IMG/VR virus record: IMGVR_UViG_3300030109_006185
Span: 1 to 27,424 of that record
Length of the DNA stretch: 27,424 bases
Strand: one strand, 5' to 3'
Source of the DNA: a virus
In this document: in pieces, positions 2,701 to 20,286 of the stretch
Layout of the letters: every line of letters begins with the position of its first letter
Position numbering within the stretch: the stretch's first letter is position 1
Translations under genes and position numbers: made by a program
The notes under the pieces: model-generated
What the model saw: the letters and a program-made list of their open reading frames with translations, nothing else
What the model was told of the DNA's origin: nothing
The model's database searches: none

Positions 2701-3060
2701 CTAAATAAAATTTGACTTAATTGCTTCTATAGTTTTTTTTGTCAGTTTTATATATACATCTCTAATGTCAGCCTCGTTAAAATTAGCACCTTTAATATTA
2801 GCATTTATAAGATTAGCATGATAAAGATCAGCACCTCGAAGATCAGCACCTCTAAGATTAGCATCTAGAAGAATAGCCTGTTTAAGATCAGCATTTCGAA
2901 GATCAGCACCTCTAAGATTAGCATCTAGAAGATCAGCACCTCTAAGATCAGCATTATAAAAATTTATTTCTTGCTTAGGGTATTTTTCCCGATAAGCATT
3001 AAAAGCACTAACATCACTTCTAAGTAATTCTGTAAGTTCTACTTTGTCTAGATTTTTCAT
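2701..3060 (-). CDS. pentapeptide-repeat protein (119 aa)
   Basis: A 35-residue N-terminal head (LTELLRSDVSAFNAYREKYP) is followed from about residue 36 to 100 by about thirteen canonical A(D/N)LxG pentapeptides (ADLRGADLLDANLRGADL...), then a short helical C-terminus (KLTKKTIEAIKSNFI). The repeats should form a quadrilateral beta-helix of about three coils. The head is the one found on many bacterial pentapeptide proteins, and also on the second pentapeptide protein of this window at 18880-19188. The ribosome binding site AAAAGGATATTAAT precedes ATG 3060. Soluble, with no signal peptide. Some pentapeptide proteins (Qnr, MfpA) mimic DNA and bind gyrase; this one is shorter than those (about 180-220 aa), so such a role is not supported here. 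Confidence 0.9.
   Translation of the reverse strand: MKNLDKVELTELLRSDVSAFNAYREKYPKQEINFYNADLRGADLLDANLRGADLRNADLKQAILLDANLRGADLRGADLYHANLINANIKGANFNEADIRDVYIKLTKKTIEAIKSNFI
2836..2932 (-). repeat. 37-bp exact direct repeat inside the pentapeptide gene
   Basis: Bases 2836-2872 and 2896-2932 are identical and 60 bp apart, i.e. 20 codons or one full turn of the four-sided beta-helix. This is a recent internal duplication that added a coil in frame. Confidence 0.85.
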
Positions 3061-3103
3061 ATTAATATCCTTTTCATATTCATATATATTATATATAACA
3101 CGG

Positions 3104-3673
3104 TTATTTTAATAGAACAAATTTATTTTTTTCAGTTACTTTTTTAATATAATTTTTTTCAGCTTCCTTGGTAAAGGTTTCTTTTGCTTCTTTCATCAAA
3201 AACATGTGTGATTTTTGGGTACGTTTACGCAGTAAATTAATACCACCTTGAAACATAATAAATTTATCGACCACATCAATTTTAATAGGGTGTCCATCAT
3301 CCTTAATGCATGGTTGACCATTTAATTTACGTAGTAGAATATCAGTGTAGTAATTAACCCAGTCATTAATATATGTTTCTTTTTTTTGATTGTTTTCTGC
3401 CTTTTCTTTTAAAATTAAGGGTGTTAATAATTGGTTAATTTTAGGGAAAAAATGGCCACGTTCAACATTAGTTCTATGATGTGCAATTAATTCTTTTAAG
3501 GTATCTTTATCAACTCTATATCGTATTAAATAGTCTAGGTAGTCCAAAAAAACTATCTTATTTTCTAACGAAGTTATTGTTTTTTCGTAAGCTAAGAAAA
3601 GTTTAAGTAGTTCAGCAAATAAATTATGTTTTTTTGATTCATTAAATTTAATATTAATATTGTCTAAGCTCAT
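3104..3673 (-). CDS. probable helicase loader / replication protein (lambda P-like position)
   Basis: 189 residues, translated from ATG 3673, which overlaps the stop of the initiator gene (ATGA). Mostly helical, with the early motif LLKLFLAYEKTITSLENKIVFLDYLDYLI and a central RGHFFPKINQLL segment. The latter recalls the FP-containing segment of phage replication proteins that partner an O/DnaD-type initiator. There is no Walker A or B, so it is not a DnaC-type ATPase loader. Its place directly behind the initiator is the O-P order of lambdoid phages. No phage helicase is seen in the window, which fits loading of a host DnaB-type helicase. Role inferred mainly from position and shape. Confidence 0.5.
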   Translation of the reverse strand: MSLDNINIKFNESKKHNLFAELLKLFLAYEKTITSLENKIVFLDYLDYLIRYRVDKDTLKELIAHHRTNVERGHFFPKINQLLTPLILKEKAENNQKKETYINDWVNYYTDILLRKLNGQPCIKDDGHPIKIDVVDKFIMFQGGINLLRKRTQKSHMFLMKEAKETFTKEAEKNYIKKVTEKNKFVLLK

Positions 3674-4395
3674 GATGTTAGCTCCTTTAGTTCATTTAAT
3701 ATATTGTATTCATTTTTTTTGTTTTTATTTTTGAAACTATACACCCCTTCAAGTACTTTCTTAAAGTTTTCCTCTTTAATAAACCAGATAAATTTTATCT
3801 GAAAATCCTTAGTAAGAAACTTTGATTCAGTAGCGTTATCTATTGCTTGCTTTATATCGTCTAGCGAGTATTTTCTTTTAAGTAAAAACAAATAGTTTTC
3901 GTAGCGGAATAGGTTGCTAAGTGAAATAAGTTGTAGTTTCTTGCTATTGTTCCAGTAATTGATTATGTCGCTGTATATGTCTGCTTTGCTTTGTATTGGT
4001 TCTAGTTGTTGGCTTAATTTCGAGAGATGTTTGTTTAAGAACGAAGATGTTACCGTATTAGAGTTCGATTTTATCACGTTTTCGTCATTCTGACAACTAG
4101 CAAGCCTAGTCAAATTATTTAACCAGGCCTGGTTAAAATTTTTAACTAGGTGGTCAAAATTTTTAACTAGGACGGCTCTTTCTCTGCGTGAATTAAGGTA
4201 AAACTGGATATAGTCTTTTTCTTGCAATTCTTCCAAAATTTGTTTTTGTTGGTACTTTGTTAGCATAAATTTTTTTTCTAATTCAGAAACAGGCAAGATA
4301 AACGTTTCTTTTTTTCTACTCACAATATATGAGAGTATCACCCCTCCTAGAACGCTTAGTCTAGGAAGGATAGAAAAATCAATTAATAATTGCAT
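3670..4395 (-). CDS. replication initiator (replisome organiser, winged-helix type)
   Basis: 241 residues. An N-terminal winged helix-turn-helix (about residues 15-75: VILSYIVSRKKE, LPVSELEKKFMLTKYQQKQILEELQEKDYI) is followed by a linker at 76-130 and a C-terminal domain at about 135-225. The C-terminal domain has the DnaD/O-type ending (YSLDDIKQAIDNA, FIWFIKEENFKKVLEGVY). Such proteins bind origin repeats through the N-terminus and recruit the loader/helicase through the C-terminus. Three iterons lie inside this gene, exactly over the linker; two of them code for the repeated heptads LVKNFDH and LVKNFNQ (residues 76-89). This is the arrangement of lambda O and its origin. ATG 4395 shares one base with the ERF stop (TAATG). 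Confidence 0.7.
   Translation of the reverse strand: MQLLIDFSILPRLSVLGGVILSYIVSRKKETFILPVSELEKKFMLTKYQQKQILEELQEKDYIQFYLNSRRERAVLVKNFDHLVKNFNQAWLNNLTRLASCQNDENVIKSNSNTVTSSFLNKHLSKLSQQLEPIQSKADIYSDIINYWNNSKKLQLISLSNLFRYENYLFLLKRKYSLDDIKQAIDNATESKFLTKDFQIKFIWFIKEENFKKVLEGVYSFKNKNKKNEYNILNELKELTS
4105..4171. repeat. iteron array, putative replication origin
   Basis: Three copies of a near-palindromic unit run head to tail at 4105-4127, 4128-4150 and 4149-4171. Each has arms CCTRGTYAAA and TTTAACYAGG around a short A/T centre. Copies two and three are spaced 21 bp (two helical turns, seven codons). A fourth copy lies at 5781-5803 by the operon promoter. Position inside the linker part of the initiator gene suggests the initiator's own binding sites. 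Confidence 0.7.
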
Positions 4396-5159
4396 TATCT
4401 GAAATCCTGCTTAATATGATCGCTTAATACGTCAATTACTTTCTGGTACTCGTTATAGTAGCTAATTTCATCAAAGTTCTTCTTAAAATGTTCTTGTGTT
4501 ATTTCACTTAGTAAGGGCATTGTATTATTATGTAACGTGTTAATGGCTTCTATTTTCTGTAGCTTCATGGCATTAATAAGCTCGCTTGCTTCTTGTTTAG
4601 TCAAGTTGAGCAGAGAGCCTTTATTGAACATCGTCTTTAAAATATCAAACTGCTGAACGTTATTCGTTCCTTTAAAAAAAGGGTTTAAATATTTCATTTG
4701 CTTGTCTGTTATGGGTTCAGACGTTACTTTTGTTGTACCAACAGGAATATTATTAGGTAGTGCATCATTGCCTGAGTTATCCATGCTATCAGGGTCTTGA
4801 TTGTCATCAATAGCGAACAATCCACATAGTGCGTATTTTCGTGCGTAAGTCGAACTTGAACCAAAACACTGTGCAATGTCCATCCCCTTTTTATTAACGT
4901 CAACACCAGCATAAGCGGTATTAGTTATAGATACATCATCACAATATAATGTTGCGGTTGCTTTAATTACTGGTAAATCATTAATATTAGTTAAGTCATC
5001 ACTCAAAACTAATGCAAGGTTGTTAGCTTTAAGGAGTGGTTTTAATTGTTGTAATATAGTTTCAACTGACCTGTAATTAAATTTAGCAAAGGCGTTATGT
5101 TTGTCTTTTGTAGCTTTTAATTCTGTTTGAACGTTAATTAATTTTTCATATATATTCAT
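4395..5159 (-). CDS. erf: ERF-family single-strand annealing protein
   Basis: 254 residues. The N-terminal half (about 1-125) is a typical ERF core: MNIYEKLINVQTEL, FNYRSVETILQQLKPLL, then the family signature with GSSSTYARKYALCGLF near residues 100-116, followed by an acidic DDNQDPD segment. ERF proteins anneal complementary single strands in phage recombination, genome circularisation and break repair, acting as cytoplasmic rings. The C-terminal half (about 150-254) is helical and less conserved, as usual. Strong AAAAGGAGATATT ribosome binding site. It lies directly before the replication initiator, and a nuclease-like DUF1064 gene is in the same operon, making a compact replication/recombination set. 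Confidence 0.9.
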   Translation of the reverse strand: MNIYEKLINVQTELKATKDKHNAFAKFNYRSVETILQQLKPLLKANNLALVLSDDLTNINDLPVIKATATLYCDDVSITNTAYAGVDVNKKGMDIAQCFGSSSTYARKYALCGLFAIDDNQDPDSMDNSGNDALPNNIPVGTTKVTSEPITDKQMKYLNPFFKGTNNVQQFDILKTMFNKGSLLNLTKQEASELINAMKLQKIEAINTLHNNTMPLLSEITQEHFKKNFDEISYYNEYQKVIDVLSDHIKQDFR

Positions 5160-5178
5160 TTTAATATCTCCTTTTAAC

Positions 5179-5274
5179 TTAAATAAACAAAGCTCTGAAA
5201 CAAAGCAATGTTATAACAATGATGGTTAAGGCATAAATGTAATTACTTACAATGTTAATAGTTTTATTTCTCAT
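5179..5274 (-). CDS. 31-residue single-pass membrane peptide
   Basis: Frame MRNKTINIVSNYIYALTIIV... ending CFRALFI. ATG 5274 overlaps the end of the 61-residue gene by 11 bases and has a GAGGTG Shine-Dalgarno six bases upstream; the stop at 5179 is followed by the ERF ribosome binding site. One hydrophobic helix (about residues 12-30) follows a short polar, positively charged N-terminus, so N-in topology is expected. It sits in an early replication operon rather than a lysis module, so I do not call it a holin. Confidence 0.6.
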   Translation of the reverse strand: MRNKTINIVSNYIYALTIIVITLLCFRALFI

Positions 5275-5449
5275 TATTATCACCTCTAACAACGTCAATA
5301 AGCTCATCATAAGTATAACCTTCAATAATATACAAGTTAGTTAACTCTTGATTAGGTCTGTTTTTTCCTTTTACATATAAATCATAGTCTTCTTGTGTAA
5401 CGCTTTCCATGTCTATCATAAATTCTAAAAAATTAATATCCATATTCAT
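5264..5449 (-). CDS. small acidic protein, paralogue 2 (61 aa)
   Basis: Starts MNMDINFLEFMIDMESVTQ, with a strong AAAAGGAGATATT ribosome binding site. Acidic, with predicted helices and no catalytic motif. It matches the neighbouring 84-residue protein in two blocks: INFLEFMIDMESVTQEDYDLY against NLIDFLVSNDYITQWDADHY, and YTYDELIDVVRGD against KSIDELVDLIKAE. It seems a shortened tandem duplicate. Second gene of the leftward operon, so made early; function unknown. Confidence 0.8.
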   Translation of the reverse strand: MNMDINFLEFMIDMESVTQEDYDLYVKGKNRPNQELTNLYIIEGYTYDELIDVVRGDNNEK

Positions 5450-5462
5450 TTAATATCTCCTT

Positions 5463-5717
5463 TTATACGCCGTTAATCTCATCAATATTTGGAACATCTG
5501 TATCCTTTTCAGCTTTAATAAGATCAACAAGTTCATCAATCGATTTATCTTCAACATCAACAAAGTGCGTTAATACGCTATCAGCATCAGGGGAACCAAA
5601 AACAAGACGGCAAACATCGTCATAATGATCTGCATCCCACTGTGTTATATAATCGTTAGATACTAGAAAATCGATTAAGTTAAGATTACACCCTTTGGTT
5701 TTATTGTTCATATTCAT
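5463..5717 (-). CDS. small acidic protein, paralogue 1 (84 aa)
   Basis: First gene after the leftward promoter. Start ATG 5717 has an AAAGGAG site 9 bases upstream; a second in-frame ATG lies at 5711. Very acidic (many Asp/Glu, DEINGV C-terminus), helical, without membrane segments. It shares two blocks with the next gene (see the 61-residue paralogue). Being first from a strong early promoter, it is likely abundant early in infection. Small acidic early proteins are often inhibitors of host enzymes or defence systems, but nothing in the sequence proves that here. Confidence 0.8.
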   Translation of the reverse strand: MNMNNKTKGCNLNLIDFLVSNDYITQWDADHYDDVCRLVFGSPDADSVLTHFVDVEDKSIDELVDLIKAEKDTDVPNIDEINGV

Positions 5718-5750
5718 ATTATTTTGCTCCTTTCATATTAATATATATTT

Positions 5751-5779
5751 ATAATAAAAGGGTTTTTTTAGATTGTCAA
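5751..5779 (-). promoter_or_regulatory. leftward sigma70-type early promoter
   Basis: Read on the minus strand: TTGACA (5779-5774), a 17-bp spacer, then TATTAT (5756-5751). The -35 box is perfect and the -10 has five of six consensus bases. Transcription should start near 5744, about 27 bases before ATG 5717. Confidence 0.85.
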
Positions 5780-5780
5780 G

Positions 5781-5803
5781 CCTAGTTAAAAAATTTGACT
5801 AGA
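5781..5803. promoter_or_regulatory. operator-like palindrome, fourth iteron copy
   Basis: Arms CCTAGTTAAA and TTTGACTAGA with a 3-base centre form an imperfect palindrome matching the iterons at 4105-4171. It ends one base from the -35 box of the leftward promoter, and CAAGCCTAGT at its edge is identical to 4101-4110. A site for the initiator (or another phage regulator) that represses or activates the operon. Confidence 0.6.
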
Positions 5804-5889
5804 AAAAAAAGAGGTAAGTAGCACGGTAAAAAAAACATATTTTTATTTTGTAAAAATTTACTATTTATTTGCTTATTAAAAATAGTTAA

Positions 5890-5919
5890 TTGATAGGTTA
5901 TTATAGTTAAGCCTAGAAT
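5890..5919 (+). promoter_or_regulatory. candidate rightward promoter
   Basis: TTGATA (5890-5895), an 18-bp spacer, then TAGAAT (5914-5919); each box matches five of six consensus bases. It lies 50 bases before the first rightward gene (ATG 5969). The AAGCCTAG motif (5909-5916) overlaps its -10 box, as expected of a repressed promoter. ATAGTTAA is also repeated at 5882-5889 and 5903-5910, 21 bp apart. Confidence 0.45.
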
Positions 5920-5939
5920 GCTCCTTTCTATTTCTAGGC
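5911..5939. repeat. 8-bp inverted repeat in the rightward leader
   Basis: GCCTAGAA (5911-5918) and TTCTAGGC (5932-5939) are perfect inverted arms around a 13-base loop. There is no T-tract after it, so it is not a standard terminator. It overlaps the candidate -10 box and start region and may be an operator or a leader hairpin. Confidence 0.55.
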
Positions 5940-5968
5940 ACAAATTATATGAAAAAGGAAAATGTAAA

Positions 5969-6199
5969 ATGGAAAAATATACAACGTCTGATTTGGGTTT
6001 AGCCTCTTTTTTGTGTGTCAAAGGTATAGGCATCGTTGAGATTAAAAAAGTAAAAGGCTCTGAAAAAGCTATGCTTAGTTTTGAAAATATGGATATGTGC
6101 AAGAAATATCATATTGAGTTTTATAATTCTGAATGCTACAAAGTTTTGCAAGAACAAAAACGTTTGAAAGGAATGATAATTTCAGCACCAAAGGGGTAA
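5969..6199 (+). CDS. DUF5659-like small phage protein (76 aa)
   Basis: I start it at ATG 5969 (MEKYTTSDLGLASFLC), which has an AAAGGAA site eight bases upstream; the longer frame from 5918 lacks one and would begin inside the leader hairpin. The sequence has the layout of DUF5659 proteins: Y-T-T-x-D-L-x-L-A-x-x-L at the start, a beta-strand pair with one F/LSF strand in the middle (KAMLSFENMD), then FYN and a C-terminal helix ending LKGMI. First gene of the rightward operon. The biochemical role of the family is unknown to me. Confidence 0.7.
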   Translation: MEKYTTSDLGLASFLCVKGIGIVEIKKVKGSEKAMLSFENMDMCKKYHIEFYNSECYKVLQEQKRLKGMIISAPKG

Positions 6200-6200
6200 T

Positions 6201-6575
6201 ATGATGAAGATCAATGCACAATACTTAATCGGTAATTTACCGACTTTACGACTTATTGCTCATGCTAAAGTAAAGCCAGAGCTAAGAAGGAAAATACACC
6301 AGTTTTTAGAAGCTTGCGACAACGAGCTTGTTTTATTCGAGAAGGAAAAAATAAGAATCTATAACGAACTCAAGGAAAAGCATAAATTTGATAAAGAAAT
6401 AACTCCTAAAGCTCAAACAGAGATGACGAAAGAGTTAATGGAGTACACTAATCAAGAGATTGAAATAGAAAAGCCTGACATTGATGTTAATCAAGTATTA
6501 GTAGGAATTGAGGAGGCGGATTTAAAAATGTCGTATCAAGACGTTAAGCTTCTTATTGATTTTTTAGAGAAATAG
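6201..6575 (+). CDS. DUF1617-like phage protein (124 aa)
   Basis: Begins MMKINAQYLIGNLPTLRLIAH; start 6201 or the adjacent ATG 6204, with AAGGGG just upstream (spacing favours 6204). The protein has an N-terminal L-I-G-N-L-P-T-L-R segment, a long central charged helix (about 28-62), a beta-like EIEIEKPDI stretch and a C-terminal SYQDVKLLIDFLEK helix. This order recalls small phage proteins of the DUF1617 group, but the match is by eye and weak. One base after the DUF5659 stop and three bases before the glycosyltransferase, so co-translated with both. Function unknown. Confidence 0.65.
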   Translation: MMKINAQYLIGNLPTLRLIAHAKVKPELRRKIHQFLEACDNELVLFEKEKIRIYNELKEKHKFDKEITPKAQTEMTKELMEYTNQEIEIEKPDIDVNQVLVGIEEADLKMSYQDVKLLIDFLEK

Positions 6576-6577
6576 CT

Positions 6578-8293
6578 ATGTCAAAAGTTAATATAGTAGT
6601 ACCGTATTATAATAATCCATTAGATGATTTTAAGAAGTTGGTTTTTTCTTTAGAAGGTCAATGTTTTAAAGATTTTACTGTAACTGTCGTTTTTGATGGT
6701 GATTTAGAATCATTTAAAAAAGTTCAAAAAGAATATTATAATAATGAAGAATGTGTAACTGAGTTTCCTTTATTTCTGGAGTTGTTAAAAGAAAATAAGG
6801 GGGCATCTTATGCTAGAAATTATGGGGCTAAGATATCAGGGGAATCTATTTGTCCTAAAAATGGAAGTTCGTTAAGTGGGGAAATATTGTTTTTTATTGA
6901 TGCAGATTGTCAGCTTAGACCAGGAATGTTAAGAGAATGTGTAGATCAATTAGATAGTAATACAAATGTTGATTTTGTTTATGGAAATTACTTATTTGGC
7001 GATACAGAACAAAGGCATGAAGCAAAAAAGTTTTGTGCTTATGAACTTGAGACAATGAACTATATTAGTACTATGAGCCCAGTTAGACGTAGGGCATTTA
7101 ATAAAGTAAAGGGATTCAATACAAATTTACCTTATTTTCAGGATTGGGATTTGTTTTATAGAATTTCTAAAAATGGAAATGGTGGTAAATATATTAACGA
7201 AAACATTTTTATTACATCTATTCCAAAAGAAGGGGATATTTCATCAATTAAAGATACATTATCAAATAAAGCTAAAACGTTTAGAAAAGCTAACAAAATC
7301 GAAGATAAAGAATTAGTTGTTACAAGTTTTGGCGCCTCTTATCAAGCATTGCAACGAGCTAAAATGTTAGGAGCTGATTATATTCATGCCGAAGCTGTGC
7401 CTCGTCTTAATTATGATAATTGGAAAGGTACTTATATGGTAGGGTTATTCAATGAGACAGCCCAAGCGTTTAATAATCATTTAATGCATATGGTTGGTAA
7501 AAAAATATTCCATTTTATTGGAACTGATGCGTTTCAGTTATATAACAATCATAGTACGTTATTTTTAGATGCGTTTTATGAAGCGTTGCAAAAAGAAAAT
7601 GCTACTATATTTGCTAACTCTCCAAGGTTATTAAAAGAGTTAAAGCGGTGTGGGTTTGAAAAAAGTAAGTTGTTGTACAGTCCGATCTACAACATAGATC
7701 AATATAAATCAACAAAGCCGTTACCAAAAGAATTTACTGTAGGTGTTTATTTTACTGATTCAAACCCAATGACAATGCTACATGACAAATCTGGATTATC
7801 TAATATTCCTATGATTGTTGATGTTGCCTCACAATTACCACACATTAAGTTTAAGTTCTTTGGGGGAAGGGAAAAATACAGCCATAAGACATTGGATAAG
7901 CCATTCCCTGATAATATAGAGTTTTGCGGACGAATAAAAGAATATGAAATGGTTGAGTTTATTAATAGCTGTAGTTGTATATTAAGATCAACTATACACG
8001 ATGGATTCCCACAAAGCCCTATTCATTTTATGTTATGTGGAAGACAGGCTATTGTAAGTTGTCCTGATGAAGAACTTAAGTACAGTATAAAGCTGAAGTA
8101 TGAAGATATTTTGGAAAACATAGACGATGCAAAGAAAGATATGGTTGATTGTATAAAGCAAGCTTATGATAATTCTGATGCTTTGTTGAACAAAACAGAT
8201 GAAATAAAAAAATATTATGGAAATTTAATGTCAGTTAATGTTTTTAAAGAAAAAATATATGAAGCATTAAATGAAAATAAAATACAACGATGA
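6578..8293 (+). CDS. two-domain glycosyltransferase (GT2 fused to GT-B/GT4-like)
   Basis: 571 residues, two catalytic modules. Residues 1 to about 225 are a GT-A, family-2 domain: VNIVVPYYNN start, VVFDGD, NKGASYARNYGAK, the metal-binding DAD (108-110) in FFIDADC, and the acceptor-side FQDWDLFYRI near 187-196. Residues about 246-565 form a GT-B-like domain: a first Rossmann half with HFIGTDAFQLYNN, a second half from about 385 (EFTVGVYF), and the donor-site segment HDGFPQSPIHFMLCG (474-488), equivalent to the EGFP...E-A-M-A-C-G motif of GT4 enzymes but with His in place of the second Glu. Two activities, adding two different sugars, are plausible. The stop overlaps the next gene in ATGA. Acceptor unknown: surface glycan, phage protein or DNA. 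Confidence 0.85.
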   Translation: MSKVNIVVPYYNNPLDDFKKLVFSLEGQCFKDFTVTVVFDGDLESFKKVQKEYYNNEECVTEFPLFLELLKENKGASYARNYGAKISGESICPKNGSSLSGEILFFIDADCQLRPGMLRECVDQLDSNTNVDFVYGNYLFGDTEQRHEAKKFCAYELETMNYISTMSPVRRRAFNKVKGFNTNLPYFQDWDLFYRISKNGNGGKYINENIFITSIPKEGDISSIKDTLSNKAKTFRKANKIEDKELVVTSFGASYQALQRAKMLGADYIHAEAVPRLNYDNWKGTYMVGLFNETAQAFNNHLMHMVGKKIFHFIGTDAFQLYNNHSTLFLDAFYEALQKENATIFANSPRLLKELKRCGFEKSKLLYSPIYNIDQYKSTKPLPKEFTVGVYFTDSNPMTMLHDKSGLSNIPMIVDVASQLPHIKFKFFGGREKYSHKTLDKPFPDNIEFCGRIKEYEMVEFINSCSCILRSTIHDGFPQSPIHFMLCGRQAIVSCPDEELKYSIKLKYEDILENIDDAKKDMVDCIKQAYDNSDALLNKTDEIKKYYGNLMSVNVFKEKIYEALNENKIQR

Positions 8294-8991
8294 TGACTAA
8301 TTATATTGATACAATAAGTTATGTATTACCCGTACACAATCAACAATTATATATTAAGAAATGTTTAGATTCTCTAATAAAACAAGAGGTTAAGGGGGAA
8401 ATAATCGTTATTAATGACGGTAGTTATGATTTTACAAACGTAATACTCGATAAATATAAAAATAAGATAGATAAGCTTATAACAAATAAAACTAGGAGAG
8501 GTTCGGCTTATTCTAGGAATATTGGAAATGAAATTGCTAGTGGAAGTATCATAGCTGTTTGTGATTGTGATTATTATTTTCCAACTAGGTCAAAAAGTAT
8601 TTTAGAGTTTTTTAATCAATTCCCTGAAAAAGATGTGTATTATTCAGCTTTATATCTACGTGAGTACAACGAGTTGCAAGCAAGTAAGAGAATGTCGGCC
8701 TTAGAGTGGGATTACAATAGTAAATGTCCAATCAGTCACCCCACTGTAGCGTATAGATCTAAGGTAACAAAAAAGCATAAATATGATGAAAGTTGTATTG
8801 ATACGGATTTATACGAGTTTTTTTTGTTGGACTTAAAACGTGCAGGTCATGAATTTGGTGGTGATGATACTGTTAGAATGACTAAATTGGAAGGCGATAA
8901 AACAAGAGATAGAAGCAAAGCTAAAATTATTAAAGAGCAAAAATACAAAGAATATAAAATAAATTTAGGGGTAAGTGATGAAGAAATATAA
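8290..8991 (+). CDS. GT2-family glycosyltransferase (233 aa)
   Basis: A single GT-A domain: ISYVLPVHNQQLYIKKCLDSL start, nucleotide-binding VINDGS (40-45), TRRGSAYSRNIGNEIASG, and the metal-binding DCD (92-94) in AVCDCDYYF. The later part has SHPTVAYRSKV and a DTDLYEFFLLDLKR acceptor-side motif. At 233 residues it is a short, soluble, membrane-anchor-free enzyme. Its start overlaps the preceding GT gene by four bases and its end overlaps the dehydrogenase gene, so the three are translated together and probably act on the same glycan. Confidence 0.85.
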   Translation: MMTNYIDTISYVLPVHNQQLYIKKCLDSLIKQEVKGEIIVINDGSYDFTNVILDKYKNKIDKLITNKTRRGSAYSRNIGNEIASGSIIAVCDCDYYFPTRSKSILEFFNQFPEKDVYYSALYLREYNELQASKRMSALEWDYNSKCPISHPTVAYRSKVTKKHKYDESCIDTDLYEFFLLDLKRAGHEFGGDDTVRMTKLEGDKTRDRSKAKIIKEQKYKEYKINLGVSDEEI

Positions 8992-9790
8992 TATAGGTAT
9001 AATAGGAAATGGGTTTGTTGGAAGTGCTGTAAGTTTTGGTTTTTCAGCTCAATGCGGATTTGATGCCAATATTAGAATTTACGATGTAGACCCCAAAAAA
9101 AGCACACATAAGTTATTAAATGTATGTAATGATTCAGATTTTATTTTCGTTAGTGTTCCTACCCCAAACAAAGACGGTGTTATTGATTTATCAGCTGTTA
9201 ATCAAGTTTTTTATGAGATAAACCAAGTTAATAACAAAGATGATAATTATTTCTTTTTAAGATCAACGGTAACACCAAACACAACAAGAAAGTTAGCTGA
9301 AAATTACCCTTACCTTAATATTGTTTTTAATCCTGAGTTTCTGACTGAAAGAACAGCTAAGTTTGATTTTATTAATCCTAGTAGGATTATTATAGGAAAC
9401 GAAAAAGGGGAAAAAAACGAAAAAATAAAAAAGTTATTTGATGATAGGTTTAGCGGTTCAGTTAAAATACAATTTATGAAATATGAAGAAGCGGAACTAA
9501 TTAAATATATGTGTAACTGTTATTTTGCTACGAAGTTATCATTTTTAAATGAGATTTATCAAATAAGCGAAAAGCTAATGTGTGATTGGGAAACTGTTAG
9601 AACAGGATGGTTAAGTGATGGGCGAATTGGAAACAGTCATTCAGAAATAGCGTTAGATGGTAAGCTAGGTTATGGTGGTGCGTGTTTACCGAAGGATATA
9701 CAAGCATTAACAACCTTTGCTAATTCATTGGGAATAGATGCACAAACAATGAAAGGAGCAATAAAAACTAATAATTATTTAAGAAAATAA
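8978..9790 (+). CDS. short UDP-glucose/UDP-HexNAc dehydrogenase
   Basis: 270 residues from ATG 8978, chosen over the GTG at 8975 because AGGGG lies six bases upstream. The N-terminal Rossmann domain has GNGFVG (NAD-binding) and VSVPTPNKDG. The middle domain has RSTVTPNTTR, FNPEFLTERTAKFDF, RIIIGNE and the helix with ATKLSFLNE (catalytic Lys and Asn). GYGGACLPKD holds the catalytic Cys at about residue 235 (family form GGSCFPKD). Family enzymes (Ugd, WbpA, WbpO) usually have 390-450 residues; the C-terminal UDP-binding domain is absent here, and a stop follows 34 residues after the Cys. The reaction would be two-step NAD-dependent oxidation of a UDP-sugar to the uronic acid. The missing domain leaves activity or partner need open. 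Confidence 0.85.
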   Translation: MKKYNIGIIGNGFVGSAVSFGFSAQCGFDANIRIYDVDPKKSTHKLLNVCNDSDFIFVSVPTPNKDGVIDLSAVNQVFYEINQVNNKDDNYFFLRSTVTPNTTRKLAENYPYLNIVFNPEFLTERTAKFDFINPSRIIIGNEKGEKNEKIKKLFDDRFSGSVKIQFMKYEEAELIKYMCNCYFATKLSFLNEIYQISEKLMCDWETVRTGWLSDGRIGNSHSEIALDGKLGYGGACLPKDIQALTTFANSLGIDAQTMKGAIKTNNYLRK

Positions 9791-9796
9791 GGATAT

Positions 9797-9922
9797 ATGA
9801 ATATGAATATGAATGATGACGATTTTATAATTCCTGAATGACATTAAAAAATTTGAAGAAACAAGGGCGAATTAACATATGAAGATCGTGAGAAATATCA
9901 TTGTAGGAATATTGATTTATGA
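9797..9922 (+). pseudogene. small broken reading frame before the methyltransferase
   Basis: ATG 9797 opens MNMNMNDDDFIIPE and stops at 9839. Immediately after, the +1 frame reads DIKKFEETRAN (from 9840). The original frame, from about 9857, reads KGELTYEDREKYHCRNIDL and ends in a TGA that overlaps the methyltransferase ATG (ATGA at 9919-9922). Three coding-looking pieces in two frames look like one small gene of about 40 residues carrying two compensating indels. A programmed shift is less likely, as no classical slippery site precedes the first stop. Confidence 0.35.
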
Positions 9923-10578
9923 AATATAAAAGCAAAGAGGAAGCAATAAAAGATCATGTTGATAATTACCGTTCAGATGGTGTTGCTAAAAAAAAGGGGC
10001 ATATAAATGAGCGTGATTATCTTAGATTTAAGTTTGTTGTTGATCTAGTGCCTAGAAATAGCGTAGTTTTTGATATTGGTTGTAATACAGGGGCGTTAGC
10101 TTTGCTTTTAATGAATGAAAAGAAGTGTTTAGTTAGAGGAATCGATGTTGTTCCTGAATTGGTAGAAAAAGCTAAAAAGAATGGTGTTTTTGCTCAAATA
10201 GGGGAAGCCGAAAAACTGCCATTTAAAAACAATAATTTTGATGTTGTGATATGTTGCGAAGTTTTAGAACATTTATTTAATCCTGAAGATGCTGTAATTG
10301 AAGCTAAAAGAGTGTTAAAAAAAGATGGAATATACATAATTACTATTCCTCACTATGAAGCACATAAAGATAAGCCATTAGGGGATTATCACCAACAAAA
10401 CATAAAGGAGCGATGTATCAATGAAATTTTTTACAAGCATTTTGGTGAAGATAACTATTCTGTGGGGGGGATACCGTTTACTGAGGAATATTGTAAATCG
10501 ATTACAAAAACAGAAAAAGAGGCCAATTTATTACTAAAAAAGCCTTATTGGTTAGGGGCGGTAGCGATAAAAAAGTGA
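9919..10578 (+). CDS. SAM-dependent class I methyltransferase (219 aa)
   Basis: A Rossmann methyltransferase of the Methyltransf_11/25 type. It has motif I VVFDIGCNTG (D52-G58), an acidic ribose-binding end of strand 2 (RGIDVVPELVEKA), motif II NNFDVVICCEVLEHL, and motif III VLKKDGIYIITIPH. Length and motifs are those of small-molecule or sugar O-methyltransferases rather than DNA methylases (no DPPY/NPPY or PCQ motif). Lying between a dehydrogenase and a glycosyltransferase, it most likely methylates a sugar or nucleotide-sugar in the same glycan pathway. The target is inference. Confidence 0.85.
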   Translation: MKYKSKEEAIKDHVDNYRSDGVAKKKGHINERDYLRFKFVVDLVPRNSVVFDIGCNTGALALLLMNEKKCLVRGIDVVPELVEKAKKNGVFAQIGEAEKLPFKNNNFDVVICCEVLEHLFNPEDAVIEAKRVLKKDGIYIITIPHYEAHKDKPLGDYHQQNIKERCINEIFYKHFGEDNYSVGGIPFTEEYCKSITKTEKEANLLLKKPYWLGAVAIKK

Positions 10579-10584
10579 GGAAAT

Positions 10585-11709
10585 ATGGATAAAAAAGAAC
10601 CAAAAATAAAAATATTGTATGTACCATCTTTGAATATTGGTGTTACTACTTGGAGAATTGAAAACTATGCAAATGAGTTAGTAGAAGCTAATAACGATAT
10701 ATTAGTGCATGTAGATTACTTATCTGACCAAAATGTAGCGTGGGATAAAGTATGCTTTAATTGCGGCGAAACGTCAGACATTATTATTAGAACGTTAGAA
10801 GGTCATTTTAAATATTTTGATATTATCGTTTTCCAAAAAATACAAAATGAGGAAGGGCTTGTTTTAATTGAAAAATTAAAAAAGAAATATCCTAAAACAG
10901 TTATTATTGCTGAAATAGATGATGCTATAGGAGAAGTCACCCCTAGTAATAGGCATAAATTTACCGATCATCACAGCAAAGCCGCTAAACATTTAGTTAT
11001 AAGTGATGCAGTAATTTCTAGCACCCCATACTTAGCAAATAGTATAAAAAAAATAGTAGGTAATGATAAACCTATATATATAGCTCCTAATTGTTTAAAA
11101 TTACATAAAGATTTATTTAATTTTGATGAAAAAATTGAATTAGAAAAAAAAGATACTATTAATCTTGTTTATGTTGCAGGTGGTGGACATGATGAAGATT
11201 TAAGACTATTCATTAAACCAATTTTAAATATATTAGAAAAACGTAACGATGTTAGGCTAATAATTAGATATGGCGATCAGAAACCCGATTGCGTACCAGA
11301 TCATCCATATATTGATTTCAAAAGTAATGTTGTTGAAAAAAACACTGATAAATGGGCAGTAAAAAACTACCTAAACAGCATGTATAAATTAAATGCAGAT
11401 ATAGGGCTTGCTCCACTACGTGATACAGAATTTAACCGATGTAAAAGTGCAATTAAATATATTGAATGGGCATATTTACAAACGCCAGTTGTAGCTAGTT
11501 GGGTAGAACCGTATAAAAATGTTGAAGGGAGTTTGCATTTAACGGAGAATGACCCCTTACAGATACAAAAAACAATAGAAAACGTAATTAAATATGTAGG
11601 TAAACAAGATTATTCTTTCTTAAGAAATCAATGCTTACAATTATACAATATTAAAAATGAATCAAAAAAATTACTTGATTGGTTTTATAAATTAAAAGGT
11701 GATAAATAA
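10585..11709 (+). CDS. GT-B (GT4-like) glycosyltransferase (374 aa)
   Basis: Good GAGGA ribosome binding site five bases before ATG 10585. The N-terminal Rossmann half (IKILYVPSLNIGVTTWRIENYANEL, FDIIVFQK, IIAEIDDAI) precedes a C-terminal half from about residue 195 (INLVYVAGGGHDEDL, GLAPLRDTEFNRCKSAIKYIEWAYLQTPVVAS). The final segment is the GT4-type donor-binding region with KS...YIEW in place of the usual E-x7-E. No membrane helix. Last of three glycosyltransferase genes; its stop shares a base with the next start (TAATG). Specificity cannot be read from the sequence. Confidence 0.8.
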   Translation: MDKKEPKIKILYVPSLNIGVTTWRIENYANELVEANNDILVHVDYLSDQNVAWDKVCFNCGETSDIIIRTLEGHFKYFDIIVFQKIQNEEGLVLIEKLKKKYPKTVIIAEIDDAIGEVTPSNRHKFTDHHSKAAKHLVISDAVISSTPYLANSIKKIVGNDKPIYIAPNCLKLHKDLFNFDEKIELEKKDTINLVYVAGGGHDEDLRLFIKPILNILEKRNDVRLIIRYGDQKPDCVPDHPYIDFKSNVVEKNTDKWAVKNYLNSMYKLNADIGLAPLRDTEFNRCKSAIKYIEWAYLQTPVVASWVEPYKNVEGSLHLTENDPLQIQKTIENVIKYVGKQDYSFLRNQCLQLYNIKNESKKLLDWFYKLKGDK

Positions 11710-18879: not shown

Positions 18880-19188
18880 ATGAAAAAATTAACAAACAAA
18901 TATTTAGCAGATCTTCTTAAAAACAATGTTAAGGCATTTAATGACTACAGAGAAAAATTCCCAAATCATAAAATAGATTTTACAGAATTAGATGAGGCTA
19001 TTAACTTTAAGCATTCTAGTTTGAATCATGCTAACCTTAGCAACATGAATTTAGAAGGGTTGAATTTTGAAGACTCAGACATGGGTAAAGTTCAACTAAA
19101 AGAATCAAACATTAGTAATTGCAATTTTATTTGTATTTTATTTGTGGTTTTATTTATCTTTTTGTTTTTTGCTTTATCACATAGATAA
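18880..19188 (+). CDS. pentapeptide-repeat protein with C-terminal membrane anchor (102 aa)
   Basis: The head LADLLKNNVKAFNDYREKFP (about residues 8-28) is clearly related to that of the pentapeptide protein at 2701-3060, about half the head positions being identical. About eight degenerate pentapeptides follow (residues 42-84: FKHSSLNHANLSNMNLEGLNF...), and then a very hydrophobic helix, CILFVVLFIFLFFAL, ending SHR. The repeats should hang on the inner membrane face. The leader (AATATGAAA...ATGAAAAA) also resembles that of the left-arm gene. The gene lies between capsid and tail genes, where it has no structural role that I can see; it looks like cargo with the epimerase that follows. Function unknown. 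Confidence 0.8.
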   Translation: MKKLTNKYLADLLKNNVKAFNDYREKFPNHKIDFTELDEAINFKHSSLNHANLSNMNLEGLNFEDSDMGKVQLKESNISNCNFICILFVVLFIFLFFALSHR

Positions 19189-19206: not shown

Positions 19207-20286
19207 ATGCAAAAATTAAAGGAAAGTATCACATATAACATTTTGGTTACTGGTGGGGCAGGATTTATAGGTTCACATATTATTGAAGAACTTTTGAAAA
19301 AAGAGGTTTTTTTTAAATTACCACTAAAAGAAATAAAAATTGAGTTTAAAATTTTTATTCTAGACAATTTTTCTACAGGCAAAATGGAGAATATAGAAGA
19401 TTTTTTAAATCATGATAATGTACGTCTAATAAAAGGTGATTTAACGGACTACAAATTTTTACTTGAGGTAATGCTAGGCATTGACTATGTTATACATCAA
19501 GGGGCTTTAGGCTCTGTTCCTAGATCATTTGACGAGCCTAAACTATATGCCCAACACAATATTATAGCGACAATGAACATATTTAATATTTCTGAAATTT
19601 ACAAAGATAAAATAAAAGGGATTGTTCAAGCGTCTAGCTCTAGTGTATATGGTGACACTGAAGAATTACCAAAACATGAAGAAATGAACGTAACTCCTAA
19701 GTCTCCTTATGCATTTAGCAAACTAGTATGTGAAGAAATGGCTCATAATTTTAATACAAGAACTAGAATACCAGTAACTAGTTTACGTTATTTTAATGTA
19801 TTTGGTGCAAGACAAAACTTAAATGGTATATACTCGCCTGTAATTCCTAACTTTATTAATGCTATTAATAATAATGAACCTTGCATAATTCATGGAGATG
19901 GAAACCAAACTAGAGATTTTACATATGTTAAATATGTAGCTGAAATAAATATTTTGTTAATGCTCCGTGATTTATATAGATATTATAATAATTGCTCTGA
20001 TAATGGATTTACGGGCATTGCTATAGATGATAAACCTATATCTGATATATATAACGTAGGTTTTGGTGAAAATCGTAGTATTAACGATATTTTCAAAGAT
20101 TTAGGGGGAACAAAAAAAAGACATACAGAAAGCAGAAAAGGGGATGTTAAGGACACATTAGCATTTACCAGAAAAAAAGGGTTTTATAAGTTAAGTGGGC
20201 TAGATTATAATGTTGTACTTTATAATAAAGACAAATTTAAAGAATATCTAGAAGAAACAGTTAAGTTTTATAAAAAAAATAAATAA
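19207..20286 (+). CDS. WbpP-like UDP-HexNAc 4-epimerase (extended SDR)
   Basis: 359 residues. NAD-binding GGAGFIGSH near residues 16-24, HQGALGSVPRSFDEP, QASSSSVYGD (catalytic Ser/Thr region), SPYAFSK (catalytic Tyr and Lys), SLRYFNVFGARQ and IHGDGNQTRDFTYV. This set, particularly the GALGSVPRS and NVFGxRQ blocks, is that of WbpP/Gne-type enzymes that interconvert UDP-GlcNAc and UDP-GalNAc (or their uronic acids) using bound NAD. Two insertions are visible: one after residue 30 (KEVFFKLPLKEIKIEFK) and one near 255-275 (YRYYNNCSDNGFTG). AAAGGAG site upstream. With the dehydrogenase and glycosyltransferases near 9 kb it could feed one sugar pathway. Exact substrate is inferred. Confidence 0.85.
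   Translation: MQKLKESITYNILVTGGAGFIGSHIIEELLKKEVFFKLPLKEIKIEFKIFILDNFSTGKMENIEDFLNHDNVRLIKGDLTDYKFLLEVMLGIDYVIHQGALGSVPRSFDEPKLYAQHNIIATMNIFNISEIYKDKIKGIVQASSSSVYGDTEELPKHEEMNVTPKSPYAFSKLVCEEMAHNFNTRTRIPVTSLRYFNVFGARQNLNGIYSPVIPNFINAINNNEPCIIHGDGNQTRDFTYVKYVAEINILLMLRDLYRYYNNCSDNGFTGIAIDDKPISDIYNVGFGENRSINDIFKDLGGTKKRHTESRKGDVKDTLAFTRKKGFYKLSGLDYNVVLYNKDKFKEYLEETVKFYKKNK

Follow-up and report, generated by a model that had tools for sequence, protein, structure and literature searches.

A probable lambda-type replication origin within the interdomain linker of a DnaD-like phage initiator gene

Why does the gene of a putative phage replication initiator carry a tandem array of near-palindromes in the middle of its coding sequence? 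The question is raised by the window analysed here, i.e. the whole linear IMG/VR record IMGVR_UViG_3300030109_006185 of 27,424 bases (31% GC) from environmental phage DNA, in which unit 1 (4105-4127, CCTAGTCAAATTATTTAACCAGG), unit 2 (4128-4150, CCTGGTTAAAATTTTTAACTAGG) and unit 3 (4149-4171, GGTGGTCAAAATTTTTAACTAGG), none of them assigned to a strand, were recovered by repeat search (copies starting at 4107, 4130 and 4151, hence 23 and 21 bp apart), by TRF (array 4104-4171, score 87) and by pattern and core matches. With up to three mismatches the pattern CCTRGTYAAAWWWTTTRACYAGG occurs at 4105-4127 (0 mismatches), 4128-4150 (0), 4149-4171 (2) and 5781-5803 (1), i.e. four times against 0.01 matches expected by shuffling, and the core RGTYAAANNNTTTRACY, like the pattern derived from these data, has exactly four matches in the window, namely in the three units and at 5781-5803, and none in 100 shuffles. 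In units 1 and 2, 9-10 of 11 base pairs of the palindrome can form. There is an overlap of 2 bp between units 2 and 3, and in one arm of unit 3 (GGTGG..) the outer CC is missing. When imperfect palindromes and pairs of similar palindromes were counted blindly in the window, their number did not exceed that in Markov shuffles, so the case for these sites rests on the array and on its conservation.

The array occupies codons 75-97 of a 241-aa open reading frame on the minus strand (3670-4395), which the ORF list, PHROG 10469 and a structure model point to as an initiator (replisome organizer) with a predicted MarR-like winged helix (residues ~15-77), a linker and a helical, DnaD-like C-terminal domain. 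In the AlphaFold model, which is weak (mean pLDDT 57, built from six sequences), the last strand of the winged helix comprises residues 73-77, residues 88-139 are of low confidence and helices lie beyond, which places the array behind the predicted wing, where the low-confidence linker starts. The first 100 residues of the model match dimeric regulators of the MarR, SarA and MepR type (Z about 9), and a dimeric winged helix of the MarR type would suit palindromic sites. With respect to its family, the initiator matches PHROG 10469 (DnaD-like helicase loader) over residues 23-229 (E 1.9e-9), and its residues 142-225 match MT835477 (tblastn, E 2e-5), while a Pfam search gave no replication family, and no PF04492 up to E = 1. 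It is thus no member of the Pfam family Phage_rep_O (PF04492) and, having a DnaD-like C-terminal region, resembles the DnaD-type replisome organizers. Homology with the O-type proteins is not established, comparison with the profile of an O-type alignment (A7) yielding a probability of 5.5%.

Directly upstream of the initiator gene lies a gene for an ERF-type ssDNA annealing protein (4395-5159, minus strand; PF04404, E 1.4e-33; PHROG 155), the two forming a common replication module, and directly downstream lies a 189-aa reading frame (3104-3673, minus strand) whose start overlaps the 3' end of the initiator gene. The model of the latter protein (pLDDT 82) has its best solved match, a modest one, in lambda P bound to DnaB (9oa1_V; Z 6.3 against 4.6 for the next match, rmsd 8.7 over 145 residues), and weak matches amongst the BFVD viral models include DUF6475, G39P-N and replication protein P; it is likely to be a helicase loader of the lambda P or G39P type. 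Neither the initiator nor the loader model had a match in the PDB by Foldseek at E 0.001, and the loader alignment had none in the genome contigs. The fourth palindrome copy (5781-5803, CCTAGTTAAAAAATTTGACTAGA, not assigned to a strand) is non-coding and sits upstream of this leftward operon, between it and the rightward genes. It is abutted by the -35 box of a sigma-70-like promoter (TTGACA-17-TATTAT, 11/12, minus strand, 5751-5779), which is a consensus match only. It scores highest among 18 promoter-like sites in 3000-6300, a total not above that in shuffles.

The original prediction, which had read the three in-gene units as a lambda O-like origin, was accurate as to their number, their position between winged helix and C-terminal domain and the two heptads LVKNFDH and LVKNFNQ that two of them encode; its set of repeats was incomplete, as it missed both the fourth copy and the different reading frame of unit 1.

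Conservation could be assessed in related phages reached via the major capsid protein (82-53% identity). Three of the capsid-related records hold a homologue of the initiator, each with the palindrome in the same linker, and a later search added a fourth near relative (L073/L078/L096). Each of these four near relatives (L064, L065, L066 and L073) has one palindrome with a 13-bp core and one with a 15-bp core in the initiator linker. Direct searches of the viral contigs for relatives of the initiator, and for the exact palindrome pattern, gave no hits; a scan of the same contigs for tandem palindromes returned the same four near relatives together with L102, which represents a third lineage. 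Its initiator (289 aa) is 30% identical to that of the window, the initiators of the near relatives and L102 together ranging from 30 to 33%, and the order ERF, initiator, loader is kept. The linker of L102 contains three palindromes, and the spacings of 11, 14 and 22 bp are identical in L102 and the near relatives. Searches with the L065 initiator against phages and with the L102 initiator against phages and plasmids yielded no match.

In these relatives the palindromes are accompanied by binding motifs for the host initiator DnaA. The consensus DnaA box TTATCCACA occurs in perfect form six times in G002, five times in G015 and three times in G004, and all 14 exact copies lie within about 140 bp of the linker, flanking the palindromes: two boxes share one orientation on one side, and on the opposite side the boxes are reversed (one in G004, three in G015 and four in G002), the reversed boxes being spaced at 21-bp steps. 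In the linkers of L064, L065, L066 and L073, with three, five or six perfect boxes per gene, these steps of seven codons add SVDN-type heptads to the protein. The single perfect TTATNCACA box of the L102 record and a box with one mismatch are both located at its linker. DnaA boxes are thus clustered in the near relatives, and L102 has one of perfect sequence besides a near match, whereas the window contains no DnaA box and no TTATNCACA anywhere. DNA within 150 bp of the window array is not unusually unstable (71st-82nd percentile), whereas in the near relatives and in the Acinetobacter phage Ab1656-2 unusually unstable DNA does adjoin the sites.

Since the same palindrome core is found in the same linker of initiators that are only 30-33% identical, and since the DnaA boxes beside it in the relatives constitute an independent origin signal, the array very probably represents that part of the phage's replication origin to which the initiator binds, embedded in the coding sequence for the linker between the initiator's own domains. 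As a functional plan, a lambda-type origin within the gene is convincing, and it is known in kind. On the other side of the balance, the copy at the promoter means that these sites need not be only an origin.

Could the repeats instead be a by-product of heptad duplication in a protein linker, with no function as DNA? Two units do encode in-frame heptads, and linkers tolerate repeats. However, unit 1 is in another frame, in which it encodes AWLNNLTR (core phases 0, 0 and 2), and the fourth copy is non-coding, which indicates that the DNA motif has been kept and not the peptide. In L102 and the near relatives, too, palindromes and DnaA boxes fall in several codon phases, again arguing for conservation of the DNA itself. 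At residues identical between the window and L065, the same codon is used at 9 of 10 positions in the linker versus 33 of 60 outside (Fisher p 0.035), and unit 3 matches the relative L096 exactly over 21 bp. The by-product explanation is already contradicted, and its probability is very small. A similarly slight chance is given to the array being a site for partition, for recombination by the ERF system or for the start of packaging: the ERF gene does adjoin the initiator gene and the record is a fragment, but the terminase genes are more than 7 kb away from the array, and the DnaA boxes of the relatives and the location within several types of initiator point to initiation.

Somewhat more weight, although it is still improbable, can be given to the palindromes being operators for a transcriptional regulator, which might be a phage repressor or the initiator. 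In that case the promoter copy would be the true target, the in-gene copies would titrate the protein or block elongation, and replication would start elsewhere. This would agree with the position of the fourth copy, immediately next to the -35 box of the operon's best promoter-like site, and with the resemblance of the winged helix to repressors of the MarR type. Against it, the near-relative records (fragments of 28.3, 15.7 and 11.3 kb) and L102 have palindromes only in the initiator linker and none at a promoter, DnaA boxes cluster with the palindromes in the linkers of the near relatives, and the same array is found in annotated genes for replication protein O.

The latter observation concerns phages with O-type initiators. 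In four ERF-linked loci (L017-L020), whose closest named relatives are Acinetobacter phages and which carry an ERF homologue at about 53% identity, the core GTTAAANNNTTTAAC lies in the linker of an initiator of 368-384 aa; these initiators match PF04492 weakly, just under the cut-off, and that of L017 matches PHROG families termed 'replication initiation O-like'. In Acinetobacter phage Ab1656-2 an annotated replication protein O gene, followed by an annotated P gene, has a tandem array with a period of about 23 bp in the O linker, and this array shares the exact 18-mer CTAGTTAAAAATTTTAAC with that of the window. The Acinetobacter O-P modules (Ab1656-2 and L017-L020) therefore agree with the window in having a linker array of about 23-bp period with palindromes of the (C)TAGTTAAAAATTTTAAC type; they differ in that the L017-L020 initiators give a weak match to PF04492 and, in profile comparison with the window protein, only the low probability noted above. 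The O gene of Pasteurella phage Pmp13 contains a different but similar array of 22 bp.

With these data the remaining parts of the original prediction can be judged. Relatives that share the initiator do carry such repeats at the corresponding position, in two further groups and with DnaA boxes alongside. The analogy with the lambda O plan holds for the site behind the wing in the linker, for the O-P gene order and for the conservation, but not for the promoter copy, which is foreign to lambda. The repeats had been called unrelated to those of the lambda O plan, and this fails for the wider O family because of the 18-mer shared with the near-identical array of Ab1656-2. The GC-skew plot proposed as a check gave no support, as the cumulative minimum lies at 5734, away from the array; it coincides with the switch in gene direction, which is a confounder.

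How does this locus compare with known origins? In iteron plasmids the origins consist of DnaA sites and of direct repeats that are not palindromic and are bound by monomers, whereas the units of the window are palindromic and a DnaA box is lacking there. In phage SPP1, oriL lies within gene 38. Both oriL and oriR are bound by SPP1 G38P, while G39P acts as helicase loader (PMC5615212). The window shares with this system the DnaD- or replisome-organizer-like C-terminus, a possible G39P-like loader and putative binding sites at two places, although a close sequence relationship of the initiators is not shown. In phage P1, oriL is located inside repL, with DnaA sites in the coding sequence; its AT-rich segment matters, and mutation of the DnaA sites was without significant effect (PMC9948254). 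The proposed in-gene origin of the window thus resembles that of P1, whose DnaA sites in coding sequence have their counterpart in the relatives of the window, whereas a palindromic array is not described for P1 in the abstract. In lambda, O dimers occupy near-perfect 19-bp inverted repeats within the O gene, AT-rich DNA next to these is opened, and the origin is activated by transcription from PR (PMC5043065); in Stx phages, additional iterons add residues to O (PMC7466680). Tandem near-palindromes of about 20 bp between the domains of the initiator, within its gene, and a helicase-loader gene (in the window a probable one) next to it are common to lambda, the Stx phages and the window. The window differs from lambda in that its initiator has no Phage_rep_O match and a DnaD-like C-terminus, in that a clear AT-rich tract for unwinding is missing beside the array, in the additional copy at the operon promoter, and in the presence of DnaA boxes in its relatives.

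If the array is an origin, initiation might proceed as follows. A leftward transcript from about 5745 would yield ERF protein, initiator and loader; initiator dimers would bind each palindrome via their MarR-like winged helices and, by analogy with lambda, line up next to one another, about two helical turns (21 and 23 bp) apart. This complex, together with transcription through the array, may open nearby DNA, and the DnaD-like C-terminal domain and the lambda P/G39P-like loader would then bring in the host DnaB helicase, again by analogy with lambda. In the relatives, host DnaA on the flanking boxes would help. The copy by the promoter may allow the initiator to autoregulate the operon, or may be a second binding site comparable to the oriL and oriR pair of SPP1.

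Origins within initiator genes are already known from lambda, P1 repL and others, and the advance is therefore one of detail and not of principle; in the present case the initiator is DnaD-like, and the relatives have a variant rich in DnaA boxes. No account of these arrays turned up in literature searches, a result that argues only weakly for there being none. Rather tentatively, and with the odds somewhat against it, the site type CTAGTTAAA-N3-TTTAAC might be proposed to serve in-gene origins of at least two classes of initiator, O-type (PF04492) and DnaD-like, between which there is no convincing sequence similarity. If this were true, site and winged helix would form an exchangeable origin cassette joined to different helicase-recruiting tails, to which some lineages would also have joined host DnaA boxes in an array that expanded by 21 bp at a time. 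More generally, such arrays offer a route from sequence alone to phage origins in fragments of uncultured phages. The comparative set, with no DnaA box, one or two, or three to six, allows a test of what host DnaA does at the origin of a phage, and also suits the study of how binding sites evolve under coding constraint in several reading frames.

A pattern scan of genomes returned 15 stretches, and among those inspected L112, from a Clostridia MAG, has an array in a winged-helix reading frame; such an array is rare in the class of L112 (1 of 291 genomes). The other inspected stretches are set in unrelated or non-coding contexts and were rejected. Both L112 (237-674) and L100 (1930-2715) encode winged-helix proteins with GTCAAANNNTTTGAC palindromes at or just beyond the end of the winged-helix coding region, and these look like the same plan in apparently other initiator families. 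A faecal phage (L127, 1443-2315) has a gene resembling DnaD-type replisome organizers whose linker contains tandem perfect palindromes (GTCACGTGAC), and contigs from Treponema MAGs (L106, L109 and L116) carry long arrays of 21-bp GTCAAAAGTTTTAAC-like repeats through which the reading frames run.

With regard to the other genes of the window, positions 409-1728 encode a 439-aa DUF4116 protein in which a 66-bp unit (22 aa) recurs about 17 times, and L102 also has a similar repeat protein near its replication genes. Pentapeptide-repeat proteins are encoded at 2701-3060 and 18880-19188, and both the relatives and L102 likewise have genes of this kind beside their initiator module. Finally, positions 6578-11709 and 19207-20286 contain genes for glycosyltransferases, a UDP-glucose/GDP-mannose dehydrogenase, a methyltransferase and a sugar epimerase, a block that is partly kept in the relative G004.
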